Positions 25,145 to 50,541 of a stretch of 64,000 nt of DNA are shown piece by piece. A program made the position numbers and the translations under genes. Location: the NCBI GenBank assembly GCA_013420905.1, contig JAAXNY010000004.1, forward strand, positions 2,542,001 through 2,606,000, written 5' to 3'. Within the stretch, counting starts at the first letter, position 1. Each line of letters opens with the position of its first letter. This stretch comes from Collybia mongolica. Taxonomy: Eukaryota > Basidiomycota > Agaricomycetes > Agaricales > Clitocybaceae. The notes under the pieces are model-generated. The model did not search any database. It had not been told where the DNA came from and saw nothing but the letters and a program-made list of their open reading frames with translations.

Positions 25145-25939
25145 CCCCCCTAACCACCATGCTTTTGTTGCATGGACTGTGCATCTTCACCATGAAGAGC
25201 ACATCTTAACCTTCCTCCTTGACATTGTGGATGTCCCTGAGGTCCATTATGTTCTTTGACTTTGATTGACACTTCTGATTGTTGCCTCACAGTCTCACAC
25301 AGGGGATGCACTTGCAAGGGCATCCCACAAGATGCTAGTTGAGCATGGCTTGACACAGAAGGTAAGTGTGATGGCTACAGCACCTCTTCCATTGCTGACA
25401 TGTGATTTAGATGTTGACATTTTTTGGTGACAATGCAACATCAAATGACAAGCAGATGGCACATTTACATTGATTACCAAATACATTTGAATCTGTCAAC
25501 TGTGTTTGGTGCTTCAACCACACAATGCAATTGTCTGCAAAGACTCTCCAACCATTTGCCTCTGCTGCTCTACCACCTTGCCTGCTGAGCCTGAACCTAA
25601 CCCCAATGATAATGAGGACAATCTACCAACCCTTGAAGAGGTGGATGACAAAGATGAAGAAGAGGATGACAATGACAATAGGGGGAGCAGAGAGGAAGAA
25701 GACTCCAAGGCTGAAGATGATGAAGATGAGGTTGACAAGGTGTTTGATGGCTTGACAGAGGAGTGTGAACAGCTCCTTGATAATATGGCTGCTGTTTGCA
25801 CCACCCTTGATAAGGTGCACTTTGCTCCCATGAGTTGGATCACACTGTTGCTAACTGTTTTGATTATGAAGATTTGCAAGTGCTCATTTGCCATTGTCCA
25901 TTCTACTACAATTACCCCTCCAGCATGGCATGCAGCTTG
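25145..25939 (+). pseudogene. hAT transposase, central part (hAT-1), interrupted by CACTA-A
   Basis: Reads HAFVAWTVHLHHEEH and FLLDIVDVPEV, then an intron ending CACAG, then SHTGDALARASHKMLVEHGL, then GDNATSNDKQ, CFNHTMQLSAKTLQPF, an acidic spacer (EEVDDKDEEEDDNDN), TEECEQLLDNMAAVCTTLDK and VHSTTITPPAWHAAC. These are landmarks of fungal hAT transposases. Frame changes and an in-frame stop show decay, and the N-terminus is missing. Coding stops at 25939 where the CACTA-type element begins. Its continuation is on the minus strand at 46923, across the inverted segment. Confidence 0.85.
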
Positions 25940-25974
25940 CACTGTGCACCTGGTGGGGGAGGTTTTTCCCCCAC

Positions 25975-26345
25975 TTAATGGATGAAAGCAGCATTTCCTA
26001 AGTTTAGTGGATGAATCTAAAGGGTATGAAATTGGGATGAAACTTCATCCCAGATATTTCATCCCTTGAGAGAATGAATTTCTGCTCTGATAATTTCAGA
26101 AATTTTCATCCCTTAGTGGTGTGAACTTTCATCCCATTAGAGGTGAATTATATGGGACAATTTTAATCCAGTGAAAAAGAGGGGAATTTCATCCTATAAT
26201 GGGTGGGTTTTATTAGATCATTTTAATCTATTAGAGAGTGAACTTTCATTCCATAAAAGGTGGAATATGTGGGATGATTTAAGTTCAGCATAGAAGGTAT
26301 TTCATCCCACAAATAGTGGGTTTATGGGATGACTTTACTGCCTTA
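25975..26345. repeat. Left subterminal repeats of CACTA-A
   Basis: Roughly a dozen TTCATCC, GGATGAA or GGGATGA words in both orientations within 370 bases. Mirror copy at 49640-49985. Confidence 0.75.
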
Positions 26346-26639
26346 GATGAATCATTTAGAAAAGAAGAAATTGAGATTTTGGTTAGATTAGAATGAAGTG
26401 TTATATGTAGTATGAAATGACTGTGTTAATTGACCTATATATATATATATATGACTAGTACTATTGGTCCATACTATGTACTTGAGTCTAAATTGTATTC
26501 AATATTGAGTACTTATAATGCACTGACTACATTTGTATAGAACTGCTACATACTAGAAAATGACATCTACTTACCAAATTTATGAAGAGGCTGGGGAAGG
26601 GGCCAGGAGGCCAGGCAGAAGTAGCAGCGGGTGATAATT

Positions 26640-26930
26640 GTGGTATGAGAGTGCATTGGGGTCTGTCTTTGGTGTCTGTGTCAGCATCTGCGCCTGCATC
26701 TGCATGCATGTCTGTGGCAGCGTCTGCGTCCGTGTTGATGTCTGTGTCTGTGTTGATGTTGGTGTTGATGTTGATGTTGGTGTTGGTGTTGGTGTCTGGA
26801 TCGTCATCCATCATCGGTGTCGGTGTTGGTGTCTGCATTGTTGTCCATCATCGGCGTCTGCGCCTGCATCTGCATGCGTGTCCGTGGTGGCATCTGTGTC
26901 CATGTCAATGTCCGTGTATGTTGTCAGTAG
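26640..26930. repeat. GTCTGTGT/GTTGATGTTG low-complexity block
   Basis: Hexamer-like repeats giving Val-Ser or Thr-Asp ORFs on either strand. Counted as a microsatellite, not a gene. Mirror copy at 49030-49320. Confidence 0.6.
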
Positions 26931-27388
26931 CCTGCGTCTGCGTCCCTCACCTGTGTCCTTCGGCGTCCGTCCTCTGTGTCCATCGCACGTCTCGGATTCC
27001 TGAGGCTTTCCTGGGGGGGTTGTGCTGCATAGTGAGTGTGTGTGTGAGTAGAATTTTGTGACGACTCACCTCCCTCTGCCCCTTGGGGCGCCCTTTCCTT
27101 GTCATCCCCTCGTTCCATGTCCTTGTCCACCCTTCGCCCCACTCCCCTAGGTGTGCGCACCCTCATCACTGTTTGCCTTTCGTGTGTCTCAGGGAGCTTC
27201 TGGTGCTTGGGGGGCCATGCATTTGGTTTCGGCGTTTGCACATTGACATTGGGCGGTTTGGTGGGTGTTGCTGATGTGGTTGAAGATCATCAACAAAGGT
27301 GTGGCAACAGTAATGTGACCTGGTCACGTGCTTTGTAACCATGTGACCACATTTGTAGACTCAGGACTACTTGTCCCCTCACTAAGAA

Positions 27389-27475
27389 TGCCAGTCTTGC
27401 CCAGTGGTTATCCATGCCAAAGGTATTAGTATTACATAATGATCCTCCCTGCAACTGTTCGAACCTGGTGGGTGC
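27389..27475 (+). other. tRNA-like stretch, copy 2 (in CACTA-A)
   Basis: TTGCCCAGTGGTTA (A-box-like) and GTTCGAACC (B-box-like) spaced about as in 7811-7893. The acceptor and T stems pair poorly. Mirror copy in CACTA-B near 48485-48570. Confidence 0.3.
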
Positions 27476-27599
27476 ACATTTTTCAGCCTCCTATTAATAA
27501 TGAATAGTATATGATTTGAATAAATAAATAAAAATATTTGTCAGCATCCTCAGATTTGATCACATGGCTTTGTTGACTGAGATGCCCAACAGCTGAACA

Positions 27600-28080
27600 T
27601 TCCGAGCTATATTATGTGTTGGCAGCCGCTTTCACACACTTTCCTTCTTGCTCTCATACCACCACCATTGCCCGTCACTGCCTCCCATCCTCCCCCTCAT
27701 AGTAAGCACTCTTCATTGATAGATTACAATTAGTATAATGTTAGATTACAATTACTATTGTAATACTTGTAGTAGTCATTTGAATTCCAATACAAACTAT
27801 AAGGCTTCATTAAAAATATTAATAAATGCTAATAATGATCCTACAGGAAACCAAAGGACATCATTAGTATGCAGGATAAAACCATGCCTGACAATGTCCT
27901 CAACATGGTACACCACTTTGTTGACCTCAAAGTGCAGGTGGACAATGAGGGGGTCTCAGTATGTCTGTCAACCCAATCTAATCCAAAGCACATTAACATT
28001 GACCCATTTTTCAGATCACTTCATTACAACAAGGTCAACAAAGACAATGAGCAGTCTGGCAGTGCACGAAGACCAACAAC
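27600..28080 (+). pseudogene. 5' exon fragments of the Spt5-like gene in CACTA-A
   Basis: The leader exon ends at 27701 before GTAAGC, like 1-130 of element 1 (both contain ACCACCACCAT). The next exon from 27847 reads PDNVLNMVHHFVDLKVQVDN, matching ARGFVDLEAQVDD of element 1. Sequence after about 27955 no longer matches. The NGN and KOW parts are absent. Confidence 0.7.
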
Positions 28081-28129
28081 TTCCATCCATTACTTAACTT
28101 TCTTTTATCTTTATCATGCTAATCTGACC

Positions 28130-28283
28130 AGCAAAACTCACCACCTTATGTAAAGTTGCTCATGCTAAAGAAAAAGTAGGGAGTCCTATTCCATGCCCAG
28201 TGTGTGGCATTGCTGGAAATGGGTTCTGTCTCCAGACACAGCTTCAGGATGACAAGGATTTATATAGGGCAATTTGGGTAAGT
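28130..28283 (+). pseudogene. Gene Y exon fragment in CACTA-A
   Basis: Reads CPVCGIAGNGFCLQTQLQDD and KDLYRAIW before GTAAGT at 28278, the same exon end as LEDDQDLYTSIR before GTAAGT at 4264. It directly follows the Spt5-like fragment, so the intervening KOW exons and gene X have been deleted. Confidence 0.65.
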
Positions 28284-28353
28284 TTTCTCATTACTAACCT
28301 CAATACATGATTCTAACAAATCACAGTGTTGCGTTTGCAGTCTGGTTGGTAAT

Positions 28354-28770
28354 TGTAAGGGGAACTCCATTTCCGCCTTACTTCGCCGATCTAGCTTACT
28401 TCGCGCTCACTCAATTACATTCACTACATCGCACGTTCATTACCTACGCCCACACGCACCCCCACTCTCTACTTTGCGCGCAGTTCGCTGCCGGACTTCG
28501 CACTTGTTCGGACTATCAAGGGCACGGTCACGTGACCTTCGCTAGCCCAACGCGTGTCGTCGTACCACACCGGGAACGTGTATTTAATGTAGTACTAGGT
28601 ATATAGCACACCCCCCCTGATGGAGGCTCCTCAGAGAATTCTCTTAGGATCCCCTCCACCAGGTGAGTAGTACATATGTCGTACAAGTGAATACATCTCT
28701 TAGGATCCCCTCCACCAGCGTCGGCCCGCTCTACTAAGTTCGCGCGCACTCCGCCAGAGTTGCCCTTACA
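28354..28770 (+). repeat. Gypsy-1 5' LTR
   Basis: 417 bases, TGTAAGGG to CCCTTACA. TATATA at 28600-28605; predicted transcript start near 28633. Contains two copies of CTTAGGATCCCCTCCACCAG, the first followed by GTGAGT. Confidence 0.95.
28600..28642 (+). promoter_or_regulatory. Gypsy-1 TATA box and predicted transcript 5' end
   Basis: TATATA at 28600 is 33 bases upstream of AGAGAATTCT (28633-28642), the sequence complementary to the primer site just after the LTR. The start is inferred from that complementarity. Confidence 0.6.
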
Positions 28771-28772
28771 GT

Positions 28773-28782
28773 AGAATTCTCT
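28773..28782 (+). promoter_or_regulatory. Gypsy-1 self-priming primer-binding site
   Basis: AGAATTCTCT, two bases after the LTR end, is the exact complement of AGAGAATTCT at 28633-28642. No tRNA-type TGG site is present. Tf1-type elements prime reverse transcription this way, with the 5' end of their own mRNA. Confidence 0.6.
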
Positions 28783-30073
28783 CACCAGCAGAGACCGCGA
28801 CCTCACCGCAGCCATTGCCAAATTCCGATTGGCAGAAACTGTCAGCTCTGATACAGAATCCGTCAAGACCGCGCGAGAATCGCCCTCTCCACCCTCCTCC
28901 GAACTAGAAGTGGAACTCCTACTCCGGCCGATGGACGCCGAAACAAGGATGGATAACATCAAACGAGACGTAGGAGATCTCAATAGGAAGGCGGAGGAAC
29001 AAGCCGAGCAGCTTAAGAAGCTCACTGACAGCATCAACGCGCTGATCGCGCTCCAAACCGCGGCTCCCCCACCCCTGGTCAATACCCCTGCACCCAGCGC
29101 CCCGGTAAATAATGTATCAACACCTCCCCCCGCGACCCACGTTAATTCGGGACGACCTTCGGCACTCCGGCCATCGCTTCCCGATGACTTCGACGGATCG
29201 CGCGAACGAGGGCGTGCGTTCATTAACGCATGCGAACTATATATAAATCTTGTACCACACCAGTTCGCGGATGAAGTGACGCAGGTACGGTGGGCATACA
29301 CCTTCATGAAGAAAGGCCGAGCGTATCTGTTCGCGGACCGGGCCATGCGATACCAGACCGCTACCGGGAACCCGAAGTACGCGACATGGGCCCTATTCCG
29401 CGCTGACTTCGCGGTCAACTTCTTCGTGCAGAGCGAAGCGCAGCGGGCGATTACGAGGTTGGAAACGAGCAGCTACCACCAAGGATCGCAATCGGTGGAC
29501 GACTACACGGACGAGTTCAGGGATCTCATCAACAAGTCGGGATACAAGGAGGGATTGACAATTGTGGTGAAGTACCGGAAGGGACTGAGCGGGGAGATTC
29601 AGTCGCAGATCGCGACGATGGCAGTGGGACGACCAGCGGACGATCAGCCGGAACAGTGGTATGTAGCGGCGATGAAGTGCGATGAAAACCGCCTCACCAA
29701 CGAGGCCTTCCTGAGCACTAAACCGGCGGCTCGCGCACCTCCCGCACGCACTACCTCGGCGTTTCGCGCACCGCCGCACTTCTCAGCCCCGACGCTGCAA
29801 CGGATGGCGCCACCACCACCTCCGCCGCCTCCTGCTCTCCCTCCACCGGTTCCGATGGATGTAGACGCGATGCGGAGGGCTCGAACAAACATCGAGACCT
29901 GCCACCGATGTAAGCAGCCGGGCCATTTCCGGAAGGACTGCCCCCTCCGCTACGACACGCGGTTCATGTCAATGGAGGAGCAGCAGGAGTTCGCGCAGCA
30001 CATCTTCGCGATGATAGACGCACAAGTCGAACCGCCGGCGGAAGAAGAGGGTTTTGTAGCGGACAGCGAGTGA
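28775..30073 (+). CDS. Gypsy-1 gag
   Basis: Open from 28775 (after a TAG) to TGA 30071-30073 with no ATG at the front; 28829 is a TTG, so the true start is unknown and may come from a spliced leader or non-AUG initiation. Order: N-terminal Ser/Glu-rich part, Pro-rich linker, retrotrans_gag core about 29190-29650 (RWAYTFMKKGRAYLFADRA, DDYTDEFRDLINKSGY, YRKGLSGEIQSQIA), Pro-rich stretch, one zinc knuckle CHRCKQPGHFRKDC near 29900, acidic end EEEGF. It forms the virus-like particle that packages the element RNA. No internal stop. Confidence 0.9.
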   Translation, partial: NSLTSRDRDLTAAIAKFRLAETVSSDTESVKTARESPSPPSSELEVELLLRPMDAETRMDNIKRDVGDLNRKAEEQAEQLKKLTDSINALIALQTAAPPPLVNTPAPSAPVNNVSTPPPATHVNSGRPSALRPSLPDDFDGSRERGRAFINACELYINLVPHQFADEVTQVRWAYTFMKKGRAYLFADRAMRYQTATGNPKYATWALFRADFAVNFFVQSEAQRAITRLETSSYHQGSQSVDDYTDEFRDLINKSGYKEGLTIVVKYRKGLSGEIQSQIATMAVGRPADDQPEQWYVAAMKCDENRLTNEAFLSTKPAARAPPARTTSAFRAPPHFSAPTLQRMAPPPPPPPPALPPPVPMDVDAMRRARTNIETCHRCKQPGHFRKDCPLRYDTRFMSMEEQQEFAQHIFAMIDAQVEPPAEEEGFVADSE

Positions 30074-30092
30074 ACAGTACGCCCTCGCTGTC
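30049..30092 (+). promoter_or_regulatory. Gypsy-1 -1 frameshift signal
   Basis: Heptamer G GGT TTT at 30049-30055 in the gag frame fits X XXY YYZ. After a 6-base spacer, GACAGCGAG (30062-30070) pairs perfectly with CTCGCTGTC (30084-30092). The -1 frame then reads SSVNRFACLEVENTSEIS to about 30190. The protease frame is the gag frame, so a small later indel near 30140 is needed, probably a lesion. An alternative is a 63-base intron 30056-30118, which would also fuse gag to pol in frame. Confidence 0.65.
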
Positions 30093-30118
30093 ATCTGTAA
30101 ACAGGTTCGCGTGTTTAG

Positions 30119-33100
30119 AAGTTGAGAATACAAGTGAAATTTCCCGAAACTACTACAGAAGCCGTACAAGATACCATCCCCGTCCCTAAACCGCTGCGCC
30201 AGAGACTCCCCCGATGGGAACGAGCTCTACCCAAGCGATTCGTAGTCGCCGCCACCCCCAGCACTCGCTCGCTGAAGCTCAAGATTGAACTTCAGACGAC
30301 CGACACAGGCGAGACATTCGCGACGAACAGCTTGGTAGACTCGGGAGCAACGGGCCTTTTCATCGATTCTGAATTCGTGCGGAGGAACAGGTTGACCTCG
30401 CGCAAGCTAGTTCGCACTATTCCGGTGTTCAACGTCGACGGCACTCCGAACGAGAACGGGTCTATTTCGGAGATCGTAGACCTCATCCTCCGGTACAACG
30501 GTCACTCAGAACGCACCCACTTCGCGGTCACCAGCCTAGGGAAGCAGGATCTCATACTGGGCTACACTTGGTTGCAGGAGCACAACCCGGAGATCAACTG
30601 GCAGACCAACGAGGTGAAGATGAGTCGCTGTCCCAACAAATGTCGGACCTGCGCGAACGAGGTTAAATCGGAAAAGGCGGAGAAGCGTAAATTGGAGGCC
30701 CGCATCAACGCCTGTCGCGCAGGACCCATGCCTGAACCAGAAACAGAAATTGGAGAGGTTCCCGACTCTGAGCACGAAGGAGATATCGCCCTTGAAGATT
30801 GCATCGAAGAGGGCGACCGTATCTTCGTGGTCAACATCGGCGAACCAGGACAGTTTCAGAAGGCATCGGAAGAGATTCGGACAACCCAAACCATCTCGCA
30901 GCGACTAGCGGAAAAGATCCAAACGGAAGCCCGGAAGAACGCGTCCCAGCAGATCGCAGACTCCTTTGATCGTAATGCGCAACCCAAGACATTTTTCGAT
31001 CTAGCACCGGCGCACATCCACGAATTTGAGGATGTGTTCTCCAAGACGTCCTTCGACGCTCTCCCAGATCGCCGACCGTGGGACCACGCGATCGAACTCG
31101 TCCGCGACGCAGAAGGGAAATCCTGCAAGGTCTACCCGCTCTCAGTCGCCGAACAAGCGGAGTTGGACAAGTTCCTCGAGGAGAACCTTGCCTCTGGTCG
31201 GATCCGCCCCTCCAAATCGCCAATGGCTTCGCCGTTCTTCTTTATCAAGAAGAAGGACGGTTTGCTACGCCCGGTACAGGACTACCGCGTTCTCAATTCG
31301 CTGACGATCAAGAACAAATACCCACTCCCACTCATCTCCGACCTTGTCAACAATCTTCGGGGAGCGAAATACTTCTCCAAATTCAACGTTCGCTGGGGAT
31401 ACAACAACGTCCGAATTAAGGAAGGTGATGAGTGGAAGGCCGCATTTCGCACAAACCGCGGAATGTTTGAGCCCCTGGTAATGTTCTTTGGTCTCACTAA
31501 CTCGCCGGCAATGTTCCAAACCATGATGAACGAGATATTCCACGATCTCATCATGGAAGGAGTGGTATGTGTCTACATCAATGATATTCTAATCTACACA
31601 AAGACACTCGCCGAACACCGCCGAATTACGAGGTTAGTTCTCCAGCGACTCCGCGAACATAAACTGTACCTGCGACTGGACAAATGCAAATTCGAGAAGA
31701 CCTGAATCGAGTATCTGGGGCTCATTATCTCGGAGGGGCAGGCGGAGATGGACCCGGTCAAGGTTGCCGGAGTAGCGGAATGGCCAACGCCCACGAACAA
31801 GAAGCAAGTGCAGTCCTTCTTGGGCTTCACGAACTTCTATCGGCGGTTCATTCGCGACTTCTCCCATATTGCGCAGCCATTGTTTGATCTCACCGGTAAA
31901 GACGTGCCTTGGAAGTGGGGTGAGTCGGAGCAGGAGGCATTCGAAGGGTTGAAGGAAGCGGTGTCGTCTAAACCGGTACTGATGTTCGCAGACAACAACC
32001 GGCCATTTAGGGTGGAGGCAGATAGTTCGGATTTCGCGACCGGCGCAGTACTTTCGCAACTCAGCCCGGAGGACGACAAGTGGCACCCGATCGCGTTTTC
32101 GTCAAAGAGCCTCAACGCGGTCGAGCGGAATTACGAGATACACGACAAGGAAATGCTCGCCATCATTCACGCACTCAAAGAATGGCGACACTTCCTTGAA
32201 GGCGCGCGACACGACTTCGAGATCTGGACAGACCACAAAAATCTAGAGTACTTCCGGACGTCCCAGAAGCTAAATCGGAGACAGGCCAGGTGGTCACTGT
32301 ACCTCTCCCGATTCAACTTCTCGCTGCACCACAAGCCCGGACGAAGTATGGGTAAGCCAGACGCGCTATCTCGCCGAGCGGACCACAGCGATGGAAGCGA
32401 GGATAACCGCGATCTAGTCCTCCTCAAACCGGAGTTGTTCACAATCCGCGCGCTGGAAGGAATGGTCGTGGAAGGAGAGGAAAGGGACATTCTGTGGGAT
32501 ATTCGGAGAGGCAATCGCGAGGGACATCAGGAGGAAGCGGTGGTGAAGGCAGTGCAGGAGTTGAAGAAGTCCGCAGGAAAATCGGTTCGGAGCGCAGAGT
32601 GGAGGGAAGCGCAGGAGTTGCTGTATTTCCGCGATCGCATCTACGTCCCAAAACATGCTGACCTTCGCAGACGTATAGTTGCGCAACATCACGATTCGCG
32701 AATTGCGGGACACGCCGGAAGATGGAAGACGTTGGAACTCGTATTGCGCAATTACTGGTGGCCTCAAATGTCGCGCTACATCGGCGAATACTGCAAGACA
32801 TGTGACCTCTGTCTCCGAACGAAGGCTCAGCGTCAACTTCCAAGCGGCGAACTTAAACCGCTGCCGATTCCGGAAGGTCGCTGGGACGTCGCAAGCGTGG
32901 ATTTCATCGTGGAACTCCCCGAGTCGCAAGGGCATGATGCGATCATGGTAGTGGTGGACACGGTGGGTAAACGCGCGCACTTCATCCCAACCACGACAAC
33001 AATTACCGCACTTGGATCGGCGAGGCTTTACCTCCAGCATGTGTGGAAGTTGCACGGCTTACCGAAGGCTATGGTCTCCGACCGAGGGGTACAGTTCGTG

Positions 33101-34012
33101 GCGGAATTCACAAGGGAGTTATATCGCATGCTTGATATTAAACTCACAGCGTCTACGGCGTACCACCCACAGACAGACGGACAGACCGAGCGAGTGAACC
33201 AGGAACTGGAGCAGTATCTCCGGTTATTCGTCAGCGAGCGACAGGACAACTGGGTCGACCTTTTACCGCTCGCCGAATTCCAGTACAATAACCACGTCCA
33301 CTCCTCGACACAGCACTCGCCGTTCTTCCTGGACACCGGTCGACATCCACGCATGGGCTTCGAACCACAGACCGCACCATCCTGGCTGGAAACCGCGAAC
33401 GAATTCCGTGACCGAATGAAGGACACCCTCGAGGAAGCCCGCACCGCATTAGCCAAAGCCAAGGACGAGATGGCGATGTACTACAATCGCCGCCGAAACC
33501 CAACACCCGACTACCAGGTTGGAGACCGGATGTATTTGGATTCGCGCGACATTCGTATCACTCGACCGTCGCAGAAACTGGCTCACCGCTACATCAGGCC
33601 CTACCCCATCGAAGCCAAGGTTGGATCGCACGCCTACCGCCTCAAACTTCCGCCGGCGCTATCGCGCATCCACCCAGTCTTCCATGTTGTCAAACTCCTA
33701 CCCGCGCCGCACGACCCAATACCCGGTAGAACGGTCACCGAAGTCCCTGAACCCACTCTCATAGACGGCGAGGTACATTATGAGGTTCAGGAGATCATGG
33801 ACAGCTGGATTTACAGGAACAAGCTGCAGTACCTGGTCGCCTGGAAGGGCTACAGCTACGAACAGAACACCTGGGAACCCGCCGACAAGGTGAATGCGGA
33901 CGAGTTGGTCGCCGAATTCTACAGACGCAACCCCGGAGCACTGCGACGCGTACAACGCGTCCAATTCGCACAGATCCCGTTCCAACGCCGGCGTGAAGAC
34001 ACGCGAACCTAG
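30119..34012 (+). pseudogene. Gypsy-1 pol: protease, RT, RNase H, integrase, chromodomain
   Basis: One frame from 30119 to 34012, broken by TGA at 31703-31705 (FEKT stop IEYLG). Protease LVDSGATGLFID near 30334. RT from about 31150: motif A reads KFNVRWGYNN and the YxDD box reads YINDILIY. Both first catalytic Asp residues are Asn (31385-31387 and 31580-31582), each explained by CG to CA. RNase H about 32000-32400. Integrase zinc domain with H-H-C-C (GHAGRWKTLE, CKTCDLCLRTK) near 32700, core with DFIVELP, SDRGVQF, and TDGQTERVNQE. Chromodomain at about 33780-33950 (LQYLVAWKGYSYEQNTWEP) that may direct integration to marked chromatin. Not functional as it stands. Confidence 0.95.
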
Positions 34013-34023
34013 AAGGGGGGTAA
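34011..34023 (+). promoter_or_regulatory. Gypsy-1 polypurine tract
   Basis: AGAAGGGGGG directly before the 3' LTR (TAA between); primes plus-strand DNA synthesis. Confidence 0.8.
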
Positions 34024-34438
34024 TGTAAGGGGAACTCCATTTCCGCCTTACTTCGCCGATCTAGCTTACTTCGCACTCACTCAATTACATTCACTACATC
34101 GCACGTTCATTACCTACGCCCACACGCACCCCCACTCTCTACTTTGCGCGCAGTTCGCTGCCGGACTTCGCACTTGTTCGGACTATCAAGGGCACGGTCA
34201 CGTGACCTTCGCTAGCCCAACGCGTGTCGTCGTACCGCACCGGGAACATGTATTTAATGTAGTACTAGGTATATAGCACACCCCCCCTGATGGAGGCTCC
34301 TCAGAGAATTCTCTTAGGATCCCCTCCACCAGGTGAGTAGTACATATGTCGTACAAGTGAATACATCTCTTAGGATCCCCTCCACCAGCCGGCCCGCTCT
34401 ACTAAGTTCGCGCGCACTCCGCCGGAGTTGCCCTTACA
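34024..34438 (+). repeat. Gypsy-1 3' LTR
   Basis: 415 bases; differs from the 5' LTR by four transitions at CpG sites and a 2-base gap (CAGCGTCGG against CAGCCGG). Confidence 0.95.
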
Positions 34439-34599
34439 GTAATGCTGGTGATCAGGAACTTTGGAATGAGGGATATGAATCAGAGGTATACTAGTTGATA
34501 GAGCATTCAAATTACAATACCTTAGATCTTATGGATGTTAAACCTTAACTGTACAAAATGAACAAAGTGTGTTTATTGATAACAGGGAAGAAATAATGA

Positions 34600-35110
34600 A
34601 TTCAAATTTAAGTGACATAAATGGCATGGAATTAATCCCCACAAAGGCTATTATTCTCACCTGTGATGGTATGAAATCCATCCCTACAAAGGCTATTATT
34701 TTCACCTATCATGGTATGAAATTCATCCCATAGCCTCAAAAATTTGCAGTAATGTTACCCCAAAAAACATTGCTATTCTCACCCATCAAGGTAGTAGATT
34801 AATCCCATATTGATAGGAATTACCTCCCACAATGGTTGTTTTTTCCACCTATGGTGAAATGAAATTCATCCCATAGCCTCGAGAATCAGGGGGTATGAAT
34901 ACGGACAAATTTCGCATGAAATTCATCCACTAAATTATACCTTAAGGGGGGGTTTTCCATCCATTTTTCCCCCCACAGGGGGTGTGTTTTCAAACATCTT
35001 CAAGATGAAATTCATTACATTTTAGGATTGTTAAGTGAATGAATTTCATATTTTTAATGTATTATTTCTATTATTTAAGAGTATGAAACACAGGGTTGAA
35101 TTTCATCTAT
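34600..35110. repeat. Right subterminal repeats of CACTA-A
   Basis: Many ATGAAATTCATCC-type words, including two near-identical blocks (GGCTATTATT followed by CACCT and GGTATGAAAT). Mirror copy at 46935-47440 in CACTA-B. Confidence 0.75.
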
Positions 35111-35126
35111 TCTCAGTTTCACAGTG

Positions 35127-35418
35127 TACAATTCCCCATCATCCTCTAGGCCCATCTCATATTGCAAGTTGAACCCATGTCCAGTGGAGCCATGTAGCAC
35201 CTGTGGTATTGTTTTCATTGATTCATCCTTTGTAGCTACAGCTTTGCACAAGGCATGGTTCTTATAAGTGATAGTGTCCTGATGAGGAAGGAACGGTTAC
35301 CTCTTACTGTGTTCTTTTTTGAGGATGTCAAAGGTGGTTTGGCCTTGCTGCTTTGCTTTGATGTCTTGGACACCATGGTTTTGGACACTGTGGTTTTGGA
35401 AGCTTTGATTTTTGCCAT
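35127..35418 (-). pseudogene. Gene Y of element 2, N-terminal part
   Basis: ATG at 35418 on the minus strand: MAKIKASKT and a Lys/Ser-rich start, then an intron beginning GTAAGAGG. The next exon reads VLHGSTGHGFNLQYEMGLED and DGELY, and stops at 35127 against CACTA-A. Joined across the inversion to 50022, it continues KTLY before GTAAGT, like LYTSIR|GTAAGT in element 1. Order relative to gene X and the Spt5-like gene is the same as in element 1. Confidence 0.75.
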
Positions 35419-35699
35419 ACTGGAAGGAAGAACAATGAGTTTTATTTTTAAAGACTTGATAGAGGTTAAGATCTGTCAGTGGGGCTTTTGACACAGGAAT
35501 GGACCACCAGCTGATTTTACTACCATAAGCACTGGAACTTTTCTTTCTGACCATGATCTTGTGACAGAAGGGTTCATGTAAGATAAGTTTACTAGCATAG
35601 AAATTAGACTGGGAAATTTGTGGAGCTAAGTGAAGGGATCTCACCACTCTAAATTTTGGACCCTCAACTGAGCATGGGTAAAGGCTCTTGTAGACTAGT

Positions 35700-35835
35700 G
35701 AAAATCATAATATATAAACCACAATACAAGTCAGGAAATTCAGAATACTATGAATACAAACCTCAAGTCCAGTTTTACTGTTACCTCTAAAATCCATCTT
35801 GCAATGCAAGTGATCATGGGGCAAGTGCAATGGAA
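35700..35835 (+). pseudogene. Gene X of element 2, part before the LINE
   Basis: Leads into NPSCNASDHGASAME, which lines up with SPCINEDGHNTIENVTEPE in element 1. It is cut at 35835 by the LINE; the rest follows at 44593. An in-frame TAA near 35795 marks decay or an upstream intron. Confidence 0.5.
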
Positions 35836-36586
35836 CCTCCGCCCTGGCACCATTTGGCGCTACCTCGGGTTCTTCTTTGACTGTCCCCTCACATTCAGAG
35901 AGCATGTCAAACGATACACAAACAAAGCCCTCACCTCTGTGAAGGCTATGCTCTCCCTCAGCAACTCTGTGCACGGGCTTAGGCCCAAGCACAAGTGAAT
36001 GCTATACCGAGCCTGTGTTCTCCCCATTGCTACATATGGGAGCAGGCTCTGGATGTATGAGGGGGCCCGCATGGCAGGCCCTCTCAATAACCTCCGGAAA
36101 ATGCAAAGGCATGCTTGCCTAAGACATCCCCAAACGGGGCTGGTGAGATCCTCGCAGGCATCCCCCCTATCCACCTTCATGTTAAGAAGTTGGTGGAAAG
36201 GAGTCATGTCCGCTCCCGTGTGCTTCAGGCCTTGCATGCCTTTCATCGTCTCATCGACGGGAACCACAAATTCTCTGTTGAGACCCTCAATGCCCACAAC
36301 CCAAGCCGTAGGCTTGGGAAACTCATATCACCTGTTGTAGAGGCCTGGGCTAACCTTGGCCTCTCTTCCCTGGATCTGGACCCCGTCCACCCACTCAACC
36401 AACTGGGCATGCGCCCCAGGGACCTGTTCCCTGATTGCATAGTCTATGATATTGTCACCCCCCCACCTAAGGGCAGTGATCACCGCAAGGATTTCATGAA
36501 AGACTGCATCACATCGCTGAAGAGCGCTGTCGATGAGGCCTCTCACTCCCCATGGAGCATCTGCATCATCACTGATGCATCCACTC
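35836..36586 (+). pseudogene. LINE RT C-terminal part and linker
   Basis: Reads WRYLGFFFDCPLTFREHVKR, LYRACVLPIATYGSRLW and LRKMQRHACL, typical of the region after the RT catalytic core in basidiomycete LINEs. A TGA after RPKHK and a frame change near 36115 interrupt it; the second frame continues to ITDAS, the first RNase H Asp, just before the Gypsy-2b insertion. Confidence 0.85.
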
Positions 36587-37061
36587 TGTTACGGCTGTTT
36601 AGGCCTTATCCTTTAGATCAATCTGGTTTGTCGTTCGTTTACTTGTAGACCGTTGACTTCGTAAGTCTAATGTCCAATGACTCCCTCAATAGGGCTAAAG
36701 TCAGATCATTGAATCAAAGATATACTACTCCCTTCGTAAGGCAAGTAGGATTGAGTTCGTGTCAAGAGATCAGAATAGATGAATAAGGTTGATTCAGCTA
36801 GGTCAAGCTAAAGAGCTAGCTAAGCTAAACTATCCATATATATATGTAAGAGTCTGATAAGCGTGGTTTACGCTATTTGTTATAGATAAAGGAATGAGTA
36901 AGCTAAGATGAGAATGAGTAAGCGTAATACAAAAGATGAATAAGCATGGGAAAGGAAATGCATATATGGGTCTTTGAAAGATAAGAGTCGATAAGTATCC
37001 GGTAATCAGTAGTATGTAAGAAAAGAAATGATAAGGGCACGTGAGTAGGGAATTTGTAACA
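36587..37061 (-). repeat. Gypsy-2b 3' LTR
   Basis: 475 bases (plus strand TGTTACGGC to TTTGTAACA). Confidence 0.93.
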
Positions 37062-37099
37062 TTACCCCCTCTCTATCCCTAAAGTGTCCCAGCTTTAGT

Positions 37100-38091: not shown

Positions 38092-38149
38092 TGTTTGTTA
38101 AGGATCTGGAATTTGTTGAGAGCGATAGTAGATGGTAGTTGGTTAGAGG

Positions 38150-41735: not shown

Positions 41736-42905
41736 TCCATATTCTTTAAGGCGATCTCCTTTTTGTCTTCATCTAATTCTGCCATAAGAGATCTGATTTT
41801 CATGTAAGCATCTTTGCCTTTCATTGGTAATTTTGGTTCTTCCTTTCGTGGAGTTTGAGGAATTGAACCTCCTGCTTTGTGATCGGATGCTCGATGTCCA
41901 AATTTATGGCATTCGAAGCATAGTCCTCGTTTCATATGTTTGTCTCTTTCTTGAATGGTCAATCGATCTATATCCATTGCATTTGGATCTTTGTTTGGAA
42001 CATATTTGGGGTTGTTTCATTGGAAATTATATTTTTTTCCATTGTTTCCTCCTGTTGGTTTTCTTGTGTTTCCTTTAATTTGTGCTACAATTGATTTTGC
42101 ATGTCTGTACTGAGTGTTGAATATAGATGCCTTCTGATACCAACCCTTGATGGTGGTCAGTGGGTTATCCATCGTCAAGATTTTCTGCATCAAGGAAGGG
42201 GGTATTCCTTCCATGAAGTACTCAACAAGTGCTTCGCTTTCGGTGATCTGACTCTCTGATGTGGCTGATTTAAATTCTGCAATGTAATCATCTGCTGTCA
42301 TGTTTCCTGTCATGCATAGCGTTTTCAGGGTTTGTCTGGCATCTCCTGCTTCATCTGGTGTGGAGAATGCTTCTTCAACTGTTGCTATGAAATCTGTAAA
42401 GGTTCCTGGGTGGGTACTATTTTCTCCATACCAGGACTTCTTCCATGGTCCCACTGTTCCTCCTTTCATATATGAGAGCATGTAAAGGATCTTCTTCCAT
42501 TCCATGTTGTAAATTCTATCATTTGCTTGCAAGTACATTTTGCAGTTGAGGACGAAGTCCTTTGTCATTCTTCAGTTTCCATCAAAGATGTTTGGTGAAC
42601 TAAGTTTGATTTTGGTGGGTTTTTGTTCATCTGCCATTTCTACGTCTGAGTCGGGTGGTATCGGGGAGTCTGGTGATTCGGGTTTCAGTGGTTTCTCTGG
42701 TTCCTTTCCTTTGGAACTTTCTGCCTTTGGTTTCAGCGTGGTGGGTGTTTCTACTGTTTGTGTGACTACTGAGAGTCTTGGTTGTTCTTCTGCATCTTGG
42801 AAGTCTTCGTTGCTAAAGGCACTTTGCCTACTGCTGCTTCTACTGTTTTTGCTGCTGCTTGCAGGCTTTAATCCATATCGTGGTGCTGTTGCATCTGAAC
42901 CTTAA
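41724..42905 (-). pseudogene. Gypsy-2b gag
   Basis: Read downward from about 42905: NEDFQDAEEQPRLSVV, FDGN then TGA at 42572-42574 (CGA in Gypsy-2), MTKDFVLNCKMYLQ, FMEGIPPSLMQKILTMDNPL, a TGA near 42016 (NFQ stop NNPK), then [13 protein letters not shown] and the knuckle [14 protein letters not shown]. The last codons MEDEGF are encoded over GGGTTTT. MDIDR here directly shows that the Gypsy-2 stop at 57977 was CGA. Confidence 0.92.
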
Positions 42906-42936
42906 TAGGTTGACGATTCTGATCAGCTTGACCTTT

Positions 42937-43411
42937 TGTTATGGCTGTTTAGGCCTTATCCTTTAGATCAATCTGGTTTGTCGTTCGTTTACTTGTAGAC
43001 CGTTGACTTTGTAAGTCTAACATCCAATGACCCCCTCAATAGGGCTAAAGTCAGATTGTTGAATCAAAGATACACTACTCCCTTTGTAAGGCAAGTAGGA
43101 TTGAGTTCACGTCAAGAGATCAGAATAGATGAATAAGGTTGATTCAGCTAGGTCAAGCTAAAGAGCTAGCTAAGCTAAACTATCCATATATATATGTAAG
43201 AGTCTGATAAGCGTGGTTTACGCTATTTGTTATAGATAAAGGAATGAGTAAGCTAAGATGAGAATGAGTAAGCGTAATACAAAAGATGAATAAGCATGGG
43301 AAAGGAAATGCATATATGGGTCTTTGAAAGATAAGAGTAGATAAGTATCCGGTAATCAGTAGTATGTAAGAAAAGAAATGATAAGGGCACGTGAGTAGGG
43401 AATTTGTAACA
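42937..43411 (-). repeat. Gypsy-2b 5' LTR
   Basis: 475 bases. Its inner neighbour on the minus strand is AAAAGGTCAAGCTGATC, the same primer site as Gypsy-2. Compared with the 3' LTR it has lost three CpG sites by C to T. Confidence 0.93.
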
Positions 43412-43416
43412 CACTC

Positions 43417-44246
43417 CCCCTCCTCCCATGCAATCAGTTGCGGTCTACCATGTATGGCACGCCAGGGACCTATATGAGGACTGGTACGCTACCAGCCTCT
43501 CTACGTCTGATGACACCGAGCTGCGAGCAATTGTGGAAGGCGTCCGACAGGCAGCTGACATTGGACTAGAAGACGTTCATGATGTCCACATCTTCTCTGA
43601 CTCCACCAACGCCCTTAGGCGTTCCCTCAATGCGTCTCACCACTCAGGTCAAGCGTCCGCCCTCAGAGTGTGTGAGGTGCTGCTGCCTTGGCTGCAGCTC
43701 TGCGCCATCCACAAGATACACCTCCACCACATTACAAATGGAGTGGAGATTGAAGACCACCAACTGGCACACATCAGTGCCGTCTTGACTCGCGTTGAGG
43801 CAGGTGGAGCACCAGTTATATCTGCTGACTTCGCACGACGCGAAGCAGTCACACGCATGCTTGATGGCTGGAAGTCTCTCTTCCAATCCAAGAAGTACAT
43901 TGGCTCCAATTTCCTGATGCTCTATGCGAAAAAGGACACCCTGCTCACCCCGACCCATGTAAACAATGGGCCATGGATGCGCAAGACTGGTCACAGCCAT
44001 GCTTTGACCACTCGTGTGGTGCGATGCATCACCAGACACGCCCCAATTGGGGTGTTCCAATCACAATTCTTCAAGGAAGAATCTGTCTCCTGTAGGTGCG
44101 GTGCTCCCCTGGAAACTGTACAACACATCCTATATGACTGTCCACGACATGGACGGGAAGACAAGCCCAGCCATCAGCTGCGCTATGTGTGGCTGGTTGA
44201 CTTCCTCTCGGAGAACAAAAGCGCATTCGCGTTTGACGTTCCCTAG
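43417..44246 (+). pseudogene. LINE RNase H domain and C-terminal zinc motif
   Basis: Continuation of the LINE after Gypsy-2b. RNase H: DDTELRAIVEGVRQA (Glu) and IFSDSTNALRRSL (Asp). C-terminal part TRHAPIGVFQSQFF and CRCGAPLETVQHILYDCPRH, a CCHC motif usual in fungal LINE ORF2 ends; TAG at 44244-44246. This stretch is open, so the break is the Gypsy insertion and the earlier stop. Confidence 0.88.
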
Positions 44247-44594
44247 TCCTAAACAGGCTAGGGGCGGTACTCAGTGTTCTAAGTGACAGCTATAGGGTGC
44301 TCCCTGCCCAAACATGCAAACCTGGATAATCGGTGGACTCAAAGCCACCACCCACTGCAGGGCACCGCAGTGGGGGCCTACCCCCTGGCGTAGATTGGCC
44401 CTTCTGGCCTGTGTACAACAAGCTCTGGCTCCATTCGCTAGCTTGACCTCAGTCGGGCAAGCATCCCAGCTCTGCAGCGCTTTGTCCTCTGCCCCCCCTC
44501 CCCATTCCCCCAATTACTACTTGTAGTGACCAGCACATGTATTAGGTACAGTTGGTATATAAAATGTCAAACAAAAAAAAAAAAAAAAAAAAAA
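44247..44594 (+). other. LINE 3' untranslated region and poly-A tail
   Basis: About 325 bases without a gene, then a run of about 22 A (44573-44594) directly followed by the target duplication. Confidence 0.85.
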
Positions 44595-45133
44595 GTGCAA
44601 TGGAATCTGAAACAGAGTCTGACCAAGAAAGCACCAACAATTTCCTGGAACCTTGTTCACCAGAGAATCAACTCAGTTTACTAGAGAATAGGCTTTGGGT
44701 AACTTGCCATTCTGATGTCTCAAATCAGAGAGCAGATGTGACTGGGGAAACAGGTGAGTGTCAGTTTGAATTGGAGTTCATGCTGAAGCTGACATTGCAT
44801 ATAGAAAGTGGTAACCTGGTCCTTGACAATAGCAAGGTGGATGTAGAAGTTAGCATTATCCATCCAGCTGGAGAAAAGGTATGTGGTAATACTTACAAGA
44901 TGTGTTAAAGATTGTACTCCTCATTGTGTGTTCATAGCTAGAAGAATATTACAATCCACATCCACATTCAAGGTGTCCACCTGATAACATTCAACTTCAA
45001 TTTTCAACAAGAAGAAACAGGGCAGGGAACAAAGTGTGTGCATGAGTCAGACAAAGGGGATAGACAGGGGGGAAATGTCAGAGATTGTAGGAAAATGATG
45101 ATGAATATATTTATATGTACATTAAGATTATAG
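44593..45133 (+). pseudogene. Gene X of element 2, part after the LINE
   Basis: ESETESDQES, PENQLSLLENRLW and VDVEVSIIHPAGEK, then an intron 44879-44944 (GTATGT to AAG at the element 1 position). The next exon reads NITIHIHIQGVHLITFNFNF and runs to TAG 45131-45133. Unknown function; acidic N-terminal half, alternating hydrophobic residues in the C-terminal half suggesting beta strands. Broken only by the LINE as far as can be seen after 44593. Confidence 0.65.
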
Positions 45134-45189
45134 GACATCTAAAGTATTCAGTATTACACTAAATGCACATTAGTACCTATTACTTACAT

Positions 45190-46690
45190 GGCCAATACAC
45201 AGTTCATCAGGACTGAGCTCCAACCGTTCCTTAGAAAGGCTCTCATAGCCATCCTCAGTCCAATTGAGGACTGCTAGTAAGACAATTGGCTGGTTGTTGT
45301 TGTACCAATGATGTACATATTCAATGAACATACTTGCCACAATGGTCATCCTTGATCATAACAAGCAACCTGTTGTTGTGCATTGGGTTGGGATGTTTCA
45401 GGATGACTTGTTCTGGAGGCACAGTCCTTATTGTCACATAGTACATGTACTAGAATGACAACTGTCTATCTACTTGTTTAATTGAGACAACCAGCTCCCT
45501 ACTGTTATGTTCCCCACCTGTAACCAAGGCCTTCAATGTTATATCAATGAGCTGTTGATCTAATAGTGGGTGGGAAGGACTTTTGAGTAACTGTAATAGG
45601 GTAGGGAGGTGGGGGCTCTGGGGGGCTGGCTCAGTCTCTAAGGAAAATGGAACATGGGTCTGTGATGATGGGTTCCAAGCTGGCATTGAGTAGTGGAAAT
45701 CAGGCATGGGGGTACTACTACTCCCAGCTACTGTGGCAGTGGGTTCCATAGGTGGATTCTGGACAAAATGGGCTGGAATGGGTGTGAAGTTTTTATTCTT
45801 GGTGGGGGTGAAATTGTACAGCTTGCAATGAGAACTTGGGAGAAGTATGTTAATGATGCCAACTGATTGGAATAAGATAACTTACAATATTTCTACAACA
45901 TCATCATAATCCAAAACTTGAGCTTGAAATGGATGGGCCAGGTTGAAGTGGATGAATTGGATACTGAGTTTGAGGCCACTTAATATATTTTGCAGCAGCT
46001 GAACATCCTTGACAATTGCACAATAGCCCTTCATTGGGTGGCCAGTCTTCTGAACTATGACTTCTGTGCCAATCCATGGTGCTCGCTTGCACTTTAGAGG
46101 CATGCTACTTGATGCAGATGGTTGTCCATGAAGTACAATTTGTGGGTCAATGACTTTGATCCAATTGATATGGACTATATGTGGCTGTTTGAATGTTATG
46201 TAGCAGTTTATTGAGGGTATTGATAATCTACCTACCTTTTGGACATTTTGAAGCACATAGCCATGAATTACTTCCTCCTCAACAAGTTGGTTAGTAATGG
46301 TTATTTCTTCTTCATCCACCCCTATTGCCCATCCCCTTTCCCCCTGAAGATCTCCACTTAATACTTCAGCATAGTGACCAGGTGTGACATGCTTCTGCAA
46401 GTCAGACCAGGGAACTATCCTTCTGCCCTCCCTAGTCTCAAGATTCACTTCTGCAGAACAAGTCTTGGTGGCTTTGATGATACCCCTCATTCTCAAAGTC
46501 CTGACAAATATCTCTTCACCTTTGAAAAATTTCCACTTTGAGGGGCAAGGGAATTTTGCATGTTCAAATTTGGGGTGGGGGGCCATTGAAAATGCATAAA
46601 ACACCTTGGTTGATATGGAGACTGTGGCAAGAGATATTGTATGGATGTGGAATTTTTTACATTCAAGGCAGAACTCAAACAAGTGACCCC
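45190..46690 (-). pseudogene. Spt5-like gene of element 2, N-terminus missing
   Basis: KOW-containing part only: exon to 46236 (KFPCPSKWKFFKGEEIFVRT, VTPGHYAEVLSGDLQGERGW), intron 46185-46235, exon to 45886 (WIGTEVIVQKTGHPMKGYCA, VLDYDDVVEI), intron, and last exon (TPMPDFHYSMPAWNPSS, then PPEQVILKHPNP near 45400) with stops and frame changes. Every block matches element 1. The NGN domain is absent; hAT coding sequence abuts at about 46700. Confidence 0.8.
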
Positions 46691-46699
46691 AGGCAGTGA

Positions 46700-46923
46700 C
46701 AACATAGATACAAGCTTACCTTCAAAACCTCCAAGAGATCCTTGACAACCTCCCAGTCCCCATCATTGAGTTCATACTGACAAAGCTGAGTGTCTTATTT
46801 CCTGTCATATTGTTGATGATGAGATGGTAGTCAAAGATGACTGTAAGCATGTCATAGGTGGAGTTCCAGCAAGTCTTGACATCATGAGGGATAAGGCAGA
46901 CATGCTGACCATGAGTGACACAA
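46700..46923 (-). pseudogene. hAT-1 transposase, part after the CACTA insertion
   Basis: Minus strand: CVTHGQHVCLIPHDVKTCWN, STYDMLTV, then after a frame change YELNDGDWEVVKDLLEVLK. RWNSTYDML-type sequence is the best landmark of fungal hAT transposases. Joined to 25939 it reads AWHAAC VTHGQHV with no base lost. It ends at the Spt5-like remnant. Confidence 0.85.
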
Positions 46924-49900
46924 CACTGTGAAACTGAGAATAGATGAAATTCAACCCTGTGTTTCATACTCTTAAATAATAGAAATAATACATTAAAAAT
47001 ATGAAATTCATTCACTTAACAATCCTAAAATGTAATGAATTTCATCTTGAAGATGTTTGAAAACACACCCCCTGTGGGGGGAAAAATGGATGGAAAACCC
47101 CCCCTTAAGGTATAATTTAGTGGATGAATTTCATGCGAAATTTGTCCGTATTCATACCCCCTGATTCTCGAGGCTATGGGATGAATTTCATTTCACCATA
47201 GGTGGAAAAAACAACCATTGTGGGAGGTAATTCCTATCAATATGGGATTAATCTACTACCTTGATGGGTGAGAATAGCAATGTTTTTTGGGGTAACATTA
47301 CTGCAAATTTTTGAGGCTATGGGATGAATTTCATACCATGATAGGTGAAAATAATAGCCTTTGTAGGGATGGATTTCATACCATCACAGGTGAGAATAAT
47401 AGCCTTTGTGGGGATTAATTCCATGCCATTTATGTCACTTAAATTTGAATTCATTATTTCTTCCCTGTTATCAATAAACACACTTTGTTCATTTTGTACA
47501 GTTAAGGTTTAACATCCATAAGATCTAAGGTATTGTAATTTGAATGCTCTATCAACTAGTATACCTCTGATTCATATCCCTCATTCCAAAGTTCCTGATC
47601 ACCAGCATTACCAACCAGACTGCAAACGCAACACTGTGATTTGTTAGAATCATGTATTGAGGTTAGTAATGAGAAAACTTACCCAAATTGCCCTATATAA
47701 ATCCTTGTCATCCTGAAGCTGTGTCTGGAGACAGAACCCATTTCCAGCAATGCCACACACTGGGCATGGAATAGGACTCCCTACTTTTTCTTTAGCATGA
47801 GCAACTTTACATAAGGTGGTGAGTTTTGCTGGTCAGATTAGCATGATAAAGATAAAAGAAAGTTAAGTAATGGATGGAAGTTGTTGGTCTTCGTGCACTG
47901 CCAGACTGCTCATTGTCTTTGTTGACCTTGTTGTAATGAAGTGATCTGAAAAATGGGTCAATGTTAATGTGCTTTGGATTAGATTGGGTTGACAGACATA
48001 CTGAGACCCCCTCATTGTCCACCTGCACTTTGAGGTCAACAAAGTGGTGTACCATGTTGAGGACATTGTCAGGCATGGTTTTATCCTGCATACTAATGAT
48101 GTCCTTTGGTTTCCTGTAGGATCATTATTAGCATTTATTAATATTTTTAATGAAGCCTTATAGTTTGTATTGGAATTCAAATGACTACTACAAGTATTAC
48201 AATAGTAATTGTAATCTAACATTATACTAATTGTAATCTATCAATGAAGAGTGCTTACTATGAGGGGGAGGATGGGAGGCAGTGACGGGCAATGGTGGTG
48301 GTATGAGAGCAAGAAGGAAAGTGTGTGAAAGCGGCTGCCAACACATAATATAGCTCGGAATGTTCAGCTGTTGGGCATCTCAGTCAACAAAGCCATGTGA
48401 TCAAATCTGAGGATGCTGACAAATATTTTTATTTATTTATTCAAATCATATACTATTCATTATTAATAGGAGGCTGAAAAATGTGCACCCACCAGGTTCG
48501 AACAGTTGCAGGGAGGATCATTATGTAATACTAATACCTTTGGCATGGATAACCACTGGGCAAGACTGGCATTCTTAGTGAGGGGACAAGTAGTCCTGAG
48601 TCTACAAATGTGGTCACATGGTTACAAAGCACGTGACCAGGTCACATTACTGTTGCCACACCTTTGTTGATGATCTTCAACCACATCAGCAACACCCACC
48701 AAACCGCCCAATGTCAATGTGCAAACGCCGAAACCAAATGCATGGCCCCCCAAGCACCAGAAGCTCCCTGAGACACACGAAAGGCAAACAGTGATGAGGG
48801 TGCGCACACCTAGGGGAGTGGGGCGAAGGGTGGACAAGGACATGGAACGAGGGGATGACAAGGAAAGGGCGCCCCAAGGGGCAGAGGGAGGTGAGTCGTC
48901 ACAAAATTCTACTCACACACACACTCACTATGCAGCACAACCCCCCCAGGAAAGCCTCAGGAATCCGAGACGTGCGATGGACACAGAGGACGGACGCCGA
49001 AGGACACAGGTGAGGGACGCAGACGCAGGCTACTGACAACATACACGGACATTGACATGGACACAGATGCCACCACGGACACGCATGCAGATGCAGGCGC
49101 AGACGCCGATGATGGACAACAATGCAGACACCAACACCGACACCGATGATGGATGACGATCCAGACACCAACACCAACACCAACATCAACATCAACACCA
49201 ACATCAACACAGACACAGACATCAACACGGACGCAGACGCTGCCACAGACATGCATGCAGATGCAGGCGCAGATGCTGACACAGACACCAAAGACAGACC
49301 CCAATGCACTCTCATACCACAATTATCACCCGCTGCTACTTCTGCCTGGCCTCCTGGCCCCTTCCCCAGCCTCTTCATAAATTTGGTAAGTAGATGTCAT
49401 TTTCTAGTATGTAGCAGTTCTATACAAATGTAGTCAGTGCATTATAAGTACTCAATATTGAATACAATTTAGACTCAAGTACATAGTATGGACCAATAGT
49501 ACTAGTCATATATATATATATAGGTCAATTAACACAGTCATTTCATACTACATATAACACTTCATTCTAATCTAACCAAAATCTCAATTTCTTCTTTTCT
49601 AAATGATTCATCTAAGGCAGTAAAGTCATCCCATAAACCCACTATTTGTGGGATGAAATACCTTCTATGCTGAACTTAAATCATCCCACATATTCCACCT
49701 TTTATGGAATGAAAGTTCACTCTCTAATAGATTAAAATGATCTAATAAAACCCACCCATTATAGGATGAAATTCCCCTCTTTTTCACTGGATTAAAATTG
49801 TCCCATATAATTCACCTCTAATGGGATGAAAGTTCACACCACTAAGGGATGAAAATTTCTGAAATTATCAGAGCAGAAATTCATTCTCTCAAGGGATGAA

Positions 49901-50018
49901 ATATCTGGGATGAAGTTTCATCCCAATTTCATACCCTTTAGATTCATCCACTAAACTTAGGAAATGCTGCTTTCATCCATTAAGTGGGGGAAAAACTTCC
50001 CCCACCAGGTGCACAGTG
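46924..50018 (-). mobile_element. CACTA-B, inverted near-identical copy without Gypsy-1
   Basis: 3095 bases, CACTGTG at 46924 and CACAGTG at 50012-50018. Interior matches CACTA-A in reverse, with long stretches identical by eye. It serves as the empty site that proves the Gypsy-1 insertion (GTAAT once, near 47610). Contains mirror copies of the Spt5-like and gene Y exon fragments, the tRNA-like stretch and the microsatellite. Confidence 0.88.
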
Positions 50019-50541
50019 GTACAAGACACTCTATGTAAGTTATAAGTTATAATGACTTATTATAATCAATATTCTGATGATAAATAGTGCTGTGTCCAGA
50101 ACTTGATTAATATAGCAGGGCTCAACTGCTCTATTGTATGGCACTGCCAGCCCAAGCCTGTTATTGCTCACATTATTGCAGTGGTAAGATCTCACCCCTT
50201 CAATTCCTTCACTCTAACAGCACCTTGCAGGCCCAGGAGCACCATGACTACTTCAAATTATTTCCCCATAGTTGGGCAATCTAGGAGTTCATCAAATCAA
50301 ACTTGAAGAACAAGTGTGCCTATACATATAAATGTGGTTACCTACAAACAATCACTGGCTTCAACAACATGCAGACTGGGAGTGACAACAAAGATAGTGA
50401 AGACAAGGAGAACACTTAGGATGAGAATTCCAAGGATTAGGACAGAAAGGATAAGGACAAGGACAAGGACAGAGAGGACAAGGATGAAGAGGAAGGGGAA
50501 GGGGAATTTGAGTGGGATGGATTAGAAGACACTGCAGAGTG
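50019..50541 (+). pseudogene. Gene Y of element 2, C-terminal part
   Basis: Begins GTACAAGACACTCTAT before GTAAGT (LYKTLY once joined to 35127). Next exon NLINIAGLNCSIVWHCQPKP, VIAHIIAV before GTAAGA, then HHDYFKLFPHSWAI, a stop, EFIKSNLKNKCAYTYKCGYL, and an acidic Asp/Lys/Glu tail to about 50541. Matches the last exons of element 1 gene Y with several stops. Confidence 0.75.

Follow-up and report, generated by a model that had tools for sequence, protein, structure and literature searches.

Inversions made by transposable elements have been described in Drosophila and in maize, and there is fungal work on ectopic recombination. The closest described case is the Drosophila buzzatii inversion 2z3, together with two earlier ones, all made by Galileo elements: opposite copies lie at both breakpoints, their target duplications are exchanged, and the un-inverted chromosomes carry a single target sequence (Delprat et al. 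2009, PMC2775673). According to the same authors, recombination between inverted copies and hybrid insertion from sister chromatids both exchange duplications, and what separates the two is the chimeric or identical nature of the copies. In maize, reversed-ends transposition of Ac/fAc produces an inversion between two transposon termini with a matching junction duplication; the new duplication arises at one junction pair and the interval between the donor elements is lost (PMC8225341, which also mentions non-standard impala transposition in Fusarium). Here we describe a locus of Collybia mongolica in which two matching, oppositely facing transposons of CACTA type, named copies A and B, bound an 11.8-kb stretch that appears to be inverted. 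Positions are numbered along the window, the whole 64,000-nt stretch analysed, which is part of contig C4 in an assembly of 46 Mb and 26 contigs; the evidence consists of the sequence letters of this one strain's assembly. The event is of a known kind, exemplified by Galileo in Drosophila, and we claim no priority for fungi.

Copies A and B are one element in opposite orientations, placed at the two breakpoints of the segment. A first-pass annotation had proposed the inversion and suggested aligning the two copies. Without the retrotransposon nested in it, copy A matches the reverse complement of copy B except for one substitution and one 2-bp indel in about 3.1 kb. Self-comparison of the window likewise gives 25940-28353 as the reverse complement of 47607-50018 (99.88% identity) and 34439-35127 as that of 46923-47611 (100%). 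Both copies start with CACTGTG and end with CACAGTG, and the other family copies that were read have these ends too, apart from deviations of a single base (CATTGTG in L006 and CACTATG at C1:4394631, for example); exactly equal 3-bp flanks are found in 28 of 57 family copies and unequal ones in 29. The likeness to CACTA/En-Spm elements extends over CACTG..CAGTG ends, 3-bp duplications, internal-deletion derivatives and repeated subterminal stretches. No En/Spm-type transposase domain is found in the single A/B open reading frame scanned (26582-27061). The family also includes longer members of about 10 kb, such as C6:3540212-3550232.

The letters around the copies are TTG-A-TAC and CAA-B-GTA. 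Read in element sense, A is flanked by TTG (5') and TAC (3') and B by TAC and TTG, a reciprocal exchange of the kind that inversion predicts; the coordinates and letters first given for the segment and its swapped flanks are correct. Assuming equal base frequencies, the probability of two independent matches of 3 bp each is about 1/4096. Paralogs of the sequences interrupted at the two junctions, which keep the un-inverted order, are stronger evidence for the inversion than these two flank matches.

At one junction a frame initially called gene Y stops at 35127 (minus) and resumes at 50019 (plus). The strain's own genome was searched separately with DNA of 46923-44500 (minus), 36586-35127 (minus) and 50019-51500 (plus), scoring the best 40 of 296, the best 40 of 194 and all 33 matches, respectively. 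The three queries match one repeat family, in the order expected after undoing the inversion. By their coordinates, 11 of the 13 non-self places reaching the 35127 edge (among the best 40 of 194) run straight into 50019 and beyond, with a 3-bp overlap, as target duplication makes, or with exact abutment; of the other two, C10:2984621 continues past a small indel and C1:3608793 has no partner among the matches listed. A joined query, made of the reverse complement from 35127 and of 50022 onwards, is spanned by 12 of 69 loci compared, which are nine distinct places; a gap at the join occurs in none of the nine, and L022 and L029 diverge or gap further right. The frame pieces of the window, GLEDDGELY and (Y)KTLYVSY, face ..GLEDDRELYKTLCVSY in the paralog frame. 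The frame is interrupted and rejoinable as first claimed. "Gene Y" is part of a dispersed repeat with an Spt5-like frame and not a demonstrated gene; the Pfam domains Spt5-NGN and KOW are found on paralog locus L014. Among the best 40 of 296 matches scored, this repeat has seven best places at 87-89% and, near 65%, an older set that includes window 1392-2794.

The other junction interrupts a hAT-like transposase frame, which stops at 25939 and resumes at 46923 (minus). Paralogs in the same genome carry the match to the left piece directly upstream of the match to 46923-46725 (minus). At the DNA level the left piece has no further match in the own-genome search and the joined hAT query is spanned by 0 of the 69 loci. 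Own-genome protein matches were used for this join because a protein database search with the right piece returned nothing at E<=0.001. They comprise 14 non-self matches for the right piece and three for the left, and each of the three (C11:718124-718438, C6:217661-217975 and C6:4357514-4357828) adjoins a right-piece match. The intervening gaps of 24, 24 and 33 nt equal exactly the uncovered residues with one TTG counted, so that all three show the spacing predicted by a duplication-collapsed join and the frame rejoins as had been proposed. For the left piece the matches have modest E values, from 1e-4 to 4e-4, and are broken by stop codons in the manner of old transposon remnants; the other 11 right-piece matches have no left match at the threshold used. 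Loci L071, L072 and L074 (C13:398555) align on both sides of the join with exact spacing, while L073 and L075 have 18 nt extra there and a left match that is not significant (E 0.72). Pfam finds no hAT domain on the window pieces, and membership of the hAT superfamily is assigned through locus L072, which runs through the junction and has the dimerisation domain Dimer_Tnp_hAT (PF05699, 23.6 bits, cutoff 21.4) in a downstream frame. A solved-structure search with a hAT paralog gave a single chance-level match (E=0.99). At window 46697/46698 the hAT remnant turns into the Spt5-like repeat, whose paralogs have other upstream sequence; this is apparently an older junction.

The joins in their present order are spanned by 0 of the 69 own-genome loci compared, and the inverted arrangement is well supported as the derived state. 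We count the common element, the exchanged 3-bp flanks and the un-inverted order in paralogs at both junctions as observed. The un-inverted order with a single target sequence is seen in paralogous repeats, not at an orthologous locus. In this the case differs from the Galileo inversions, for which un-inverted chromosomes were sequenced and the copies are chimeric, leading the authors to exclude hybrid insertion (PMC2775673); here the copies are identical and the order comes from paralogous repeats. Element superfamily and host are also different. The locus is nonetheless a clean case from a single assembly, its repeats acting as built-in references for the pre-inversion order. Neither the two junctions nor the examined parts of the segment, which are mobile elements and repeats, yielded a recognisable host gene, so the inversion is probably neutral.

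Coordinates of the features at the inverted locus (window positions)
Feature	Position	Strand	Remarks
Copy A	25940..35126	+	9187 bp with nested retrotransposon; ends CACTGTG..CACAGTG
Copy B	46924..50018	-	3095 bp; element as in copy A, opposite orientation, without retrotransposon
Inverted segment	35127..46923	.	11,797 bp
TTG, 5' flank of copy A	25937..25939	+	partner CAA at 46921-46923
TAC, 3' flank of copy A	35127..35129	+	partner GTA at 50019-50021
CAA, flank of copy B	46921..46923	+	partner TTG at 25937-25939
GTA, flank of copy B	50019..50021	+	partner TAC at 35127-35129
hAT-like frame, left piece (broken)	25506..25939	+	ends ..STTITPPAWHAA(C)
hAT-like frame, right piece	46725..46923	-	CVTHGQHVCLIPHDVKTCWNSTYDML..
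Dispersed repeat, part on the "gene Y" side	35127..35838	-	continues at 50019 on plus strand
Dispersed repeat, truncated part with Spt5-like frame	44593..46697	-	own-genome DNA matches to query 227-2331
Dispersed repeat beyond the inversion	50019..51500	+	51500 is the end of the stretch compared
Nested retrotransposon with long terminal repeats, Ty3/gypsy type with chromodomain	28354..34438	+	in copy A
Long terminal repeats of the nested retrotransposon	28354-28770, 34024-34438		417 bp and 415 bp; 5-bp duplication GTAAT at 28349-28353 and 34439-34443
Second retrotransposon with long terminal repeats, within the inverted segment	36587..43411	-	terminal repeats 36587-37061 and 42937-43411; integrase and reverse transcriptase domains

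From sequence alone we lean, with measured confidence, towards recombination between the inverted copies A and B as the mechanism of the flip. Two near-identical CACTA-type elements would have lain about 12 kb apart in opposite orientation before the inversion, one in the hAT remnant (target TTG) and the other in the dispersed Spt5-like repeat (target GTA). A crossover by non-allelic homologous recombination between these inverted repeats, within a single chromatid or across two sisters, would flip the intervening 11.8 kb and leave each copy with one flank per insertion site. The origin of the second copy by local transposition, the homologous exchange and the correctness of the assembly are inferred. 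The substrate for recombination is ample, with 3.1 kb of inverted sequence at 99.9% identity. Close, long, near-perfect inverted repeats recombine readily and can keep flipping the segment between them. On this reading, it should be possible to recover the segment from the species in either orientation.

The first-pass annotation went further and took the arrangement as direct evidence of ectopic recombination; its observation is confirmed and its interpretation partly supported. The claim is too strong because the near-identity of A and B blocks the chimeric-versus-identical test, and insertion of a hybrid element leaves the same arrangement with exchanged duplications (PMC2775673). In such an event the transposase would take jointly the right end of one chromatid's element and the left end of the sister's and insert them about 12 kb away, inverting the interval; second copy and inversion would come from a single event, the donor flank being shared and the target duplicated. 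We consider this a rather unlikely origin, albeit one to be taken seriously. Its outcome is described as strikingly similar to that of ectopic recombination except for the identity of the copies, and the criterion of Delprat et al. (2009, PMC2775673) would favour it here.

Several observations weigh against recombination between A and B. The two copies are nearly the same, yet identity is 92.8% for L004 over its whole length and 93.5% for L003 over the first 2.5 kb, these being the two closest of the other long copies read, from an own-genome search that scored the best 40 of 512 candidates. One-step aberrant transposition directly predicts this near-identity, and recombination needs prior local transposition or gene conversion to account for it; aberrant transposition could also produce the unequal flanks of 29 of the 57 family copies. 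There are no mosaic markers separating A from B, and chimerism is not visible because the copies differ by a single substitution and a single indel. Inverted daughters of a local transposition are, on the other hand, equally expected to be identical, and they would be close inverted repeats of the kind that recombines readily.

The retrotransposon nested in copy A bears on the same question. It gives domain matches to gag, protease, reverse transcriptase, RNase H, integrase and chromodomain. Its start had been placed correctly; its end had been set at 34443, which takes in one GTAAT duplication, the true end being 34438. It is present in A only and B keeps the empty site, so its insertion should be no older than the split of the two copies. 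Its long terminal repeats differ by four substitutions and one indel in 417 bp, against the one substitution and one indel in about 3.1 kb between A and B (Fisher p=0.0009, all substitutions). Their larger divergence may be a weak sign that conversion made A and B alike again after the insertion, and hence of homologous exchange between them; it also speaks weakly against hybrid insertion, under which the retrotransposon cannot have inserted into A before the two copies were identical. Two results count against this use of the repeats: all four substitutions fall at CpG sites, and a CpG-only comparison gives 4/34 in the repeats versus 0/41 between A and B (p=0.038; 5/34 and p=0.016 with the indel counted), weakening the signal. 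We keep the age of the repeats as a weak hint and not as a clock. The CpG observed/expected ratio is 0.32 in the CACTA element (window 25940-35126) versus 1.1-1.2 in the retrotransposon nested there.

Intramolecular replicative transposition, a Shapiro-type adjacent inversion as in bacterial Mu and Tn3, would by inference give the same arrangement too, with two identical inverted copies bounding the inverted segment and crossed flanks, and it fits the near-identity of A and B. We rate it as highly improbable: CACTA elements are regarded as cut-and-paste transposons, the locus bears no sign of replication, and the divergence of the terminal repeats counts against it as it does against hybrid insertion. 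Two further candidates were rejected. Reversed-ends transposition would not produce flanks that match on both sides, nor an unbroken hAT frame; unlike in the maize case, both flank pairs match across the copies, and the two junctions have lost no sequence. An inversion by staggered breaks, with an inverted duplication from end joining, was discarded since what is duplicated is precisely one transposon, ends included.

The paralogs would suit equally well a chromosome that is in truth un-inverted, the assembler having misoriented the segment between near-identical inverted copies. Copy A, at 9.2 kb, is beyond the length of many reads, and misjoins could have raised the high share of copies with unequal flanks, 29 of 57. 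Against such an artefact, 46 Mb in 26 contigs, multi-megabase ones among them, suggests long reads able to cross the 3.1-kb copy B, and unequal flanks occur also in 11 of 24 copies of just 2,839-2,931 bp (the other 13 being equal). We judge the artefact improbable.

The frequent mismatch of flanks within the element family is a more interesting lead than the inversion between A and B. The family looks young because its last 683 bp are at least 97% alike in 38 of the 41 matches listed, A and B included (best 40 of 152 candidates scored). Terminus patterns gave 95 matches (3') and 148 (5', of which 100 places are among the matches listed) in the genome, and reversed control patterns gave 0. Pairing of nearest ends yielded 60 candidate copies, 57 of them read at both ends; the three dropped are two that shared a 5' end with another pair and one not read. 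Where the ends lie far apart the pairing may in some cases be wrong, for instance at C7:261581-270465 and C13:313797-317703. Within the 29 unequal copies the flanks differ by one base in seven and by two or three in 22.

Exactly two reciprocal pairs occur among these 29 copies, A/B and one on contig C8 (C8:2017654-2020516, plus, CAA/TAT; C8:2006266-2009128, minus, TAT/CAA), whose members lie 8,525 bp apart in opposite orientation. In 20,000 shuffles of the 3' flanks among the 29 copies, at least two reciprocal pairs arise in 0.57% and at least one in 13%. Shuffling without A/B is the fairer test because that pair was known beforehand: with the remaining 27 copies, at least one reciprocal pair arises anywhere in 9.4%, and at least one less than 20 kb apart and in opposite orientation in 0.57%. 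There are four neighbouring opposite pairs among the unequal copies; both pairs made of separate copies are reciprocal, and neither of the overlapping pairs (C7, C13) is. The C8 pair is probably a second inversion. Its copies are not quite identical, their first 321 bp scoring 562 versus 566 bits against A, and we count this second neighbouring, inverted pair as an argument for recombination and against hybrid insertion.

For the remaining 25 unequal copies the census, limited to 60 of the 95 3' ends at most, contains no partner. Exchange, deletion, unlisted partners, aberrant transposition, false end-pairing and misassembly are possible sources of their flanks. In a further-reaching reading, a recently active CACTA-type family would routinely reshuffle chromosomes: about half of its copies would carry the flanks of two sites, at least two local inversions would be preserved with both of their exchanged flanks, and the cause would be transposase joining ends of different copies, in hybrid or alternative transposition, not homologous recombination. 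We find this reading doubtful. If the unequal flanks of 29 of the 57 copies are real, this genome would allow a direct count of the chromosome rearrangements made by a DNA transposon family, and also a test of recombination versus aberrant transposition. At C7:261581-270465 the end positions are mirror-symmetric (2,027 bp each side) and the inner 5' flanks identical, a pattern suggestive of family copies nested in an 8.9-kb palindrome, which is either genuine or a fold-back of the assembly.

An Rfam scan of the window gave nothing at gathering scores. Window 35839-44593 is missing from the paralogs of the dispersed repeat, which run from 44593 to 35838 with an overlap of about 15 bp. We read this stretch as a separate insertion of about 8.8 kb that holds the second retrotransposon.

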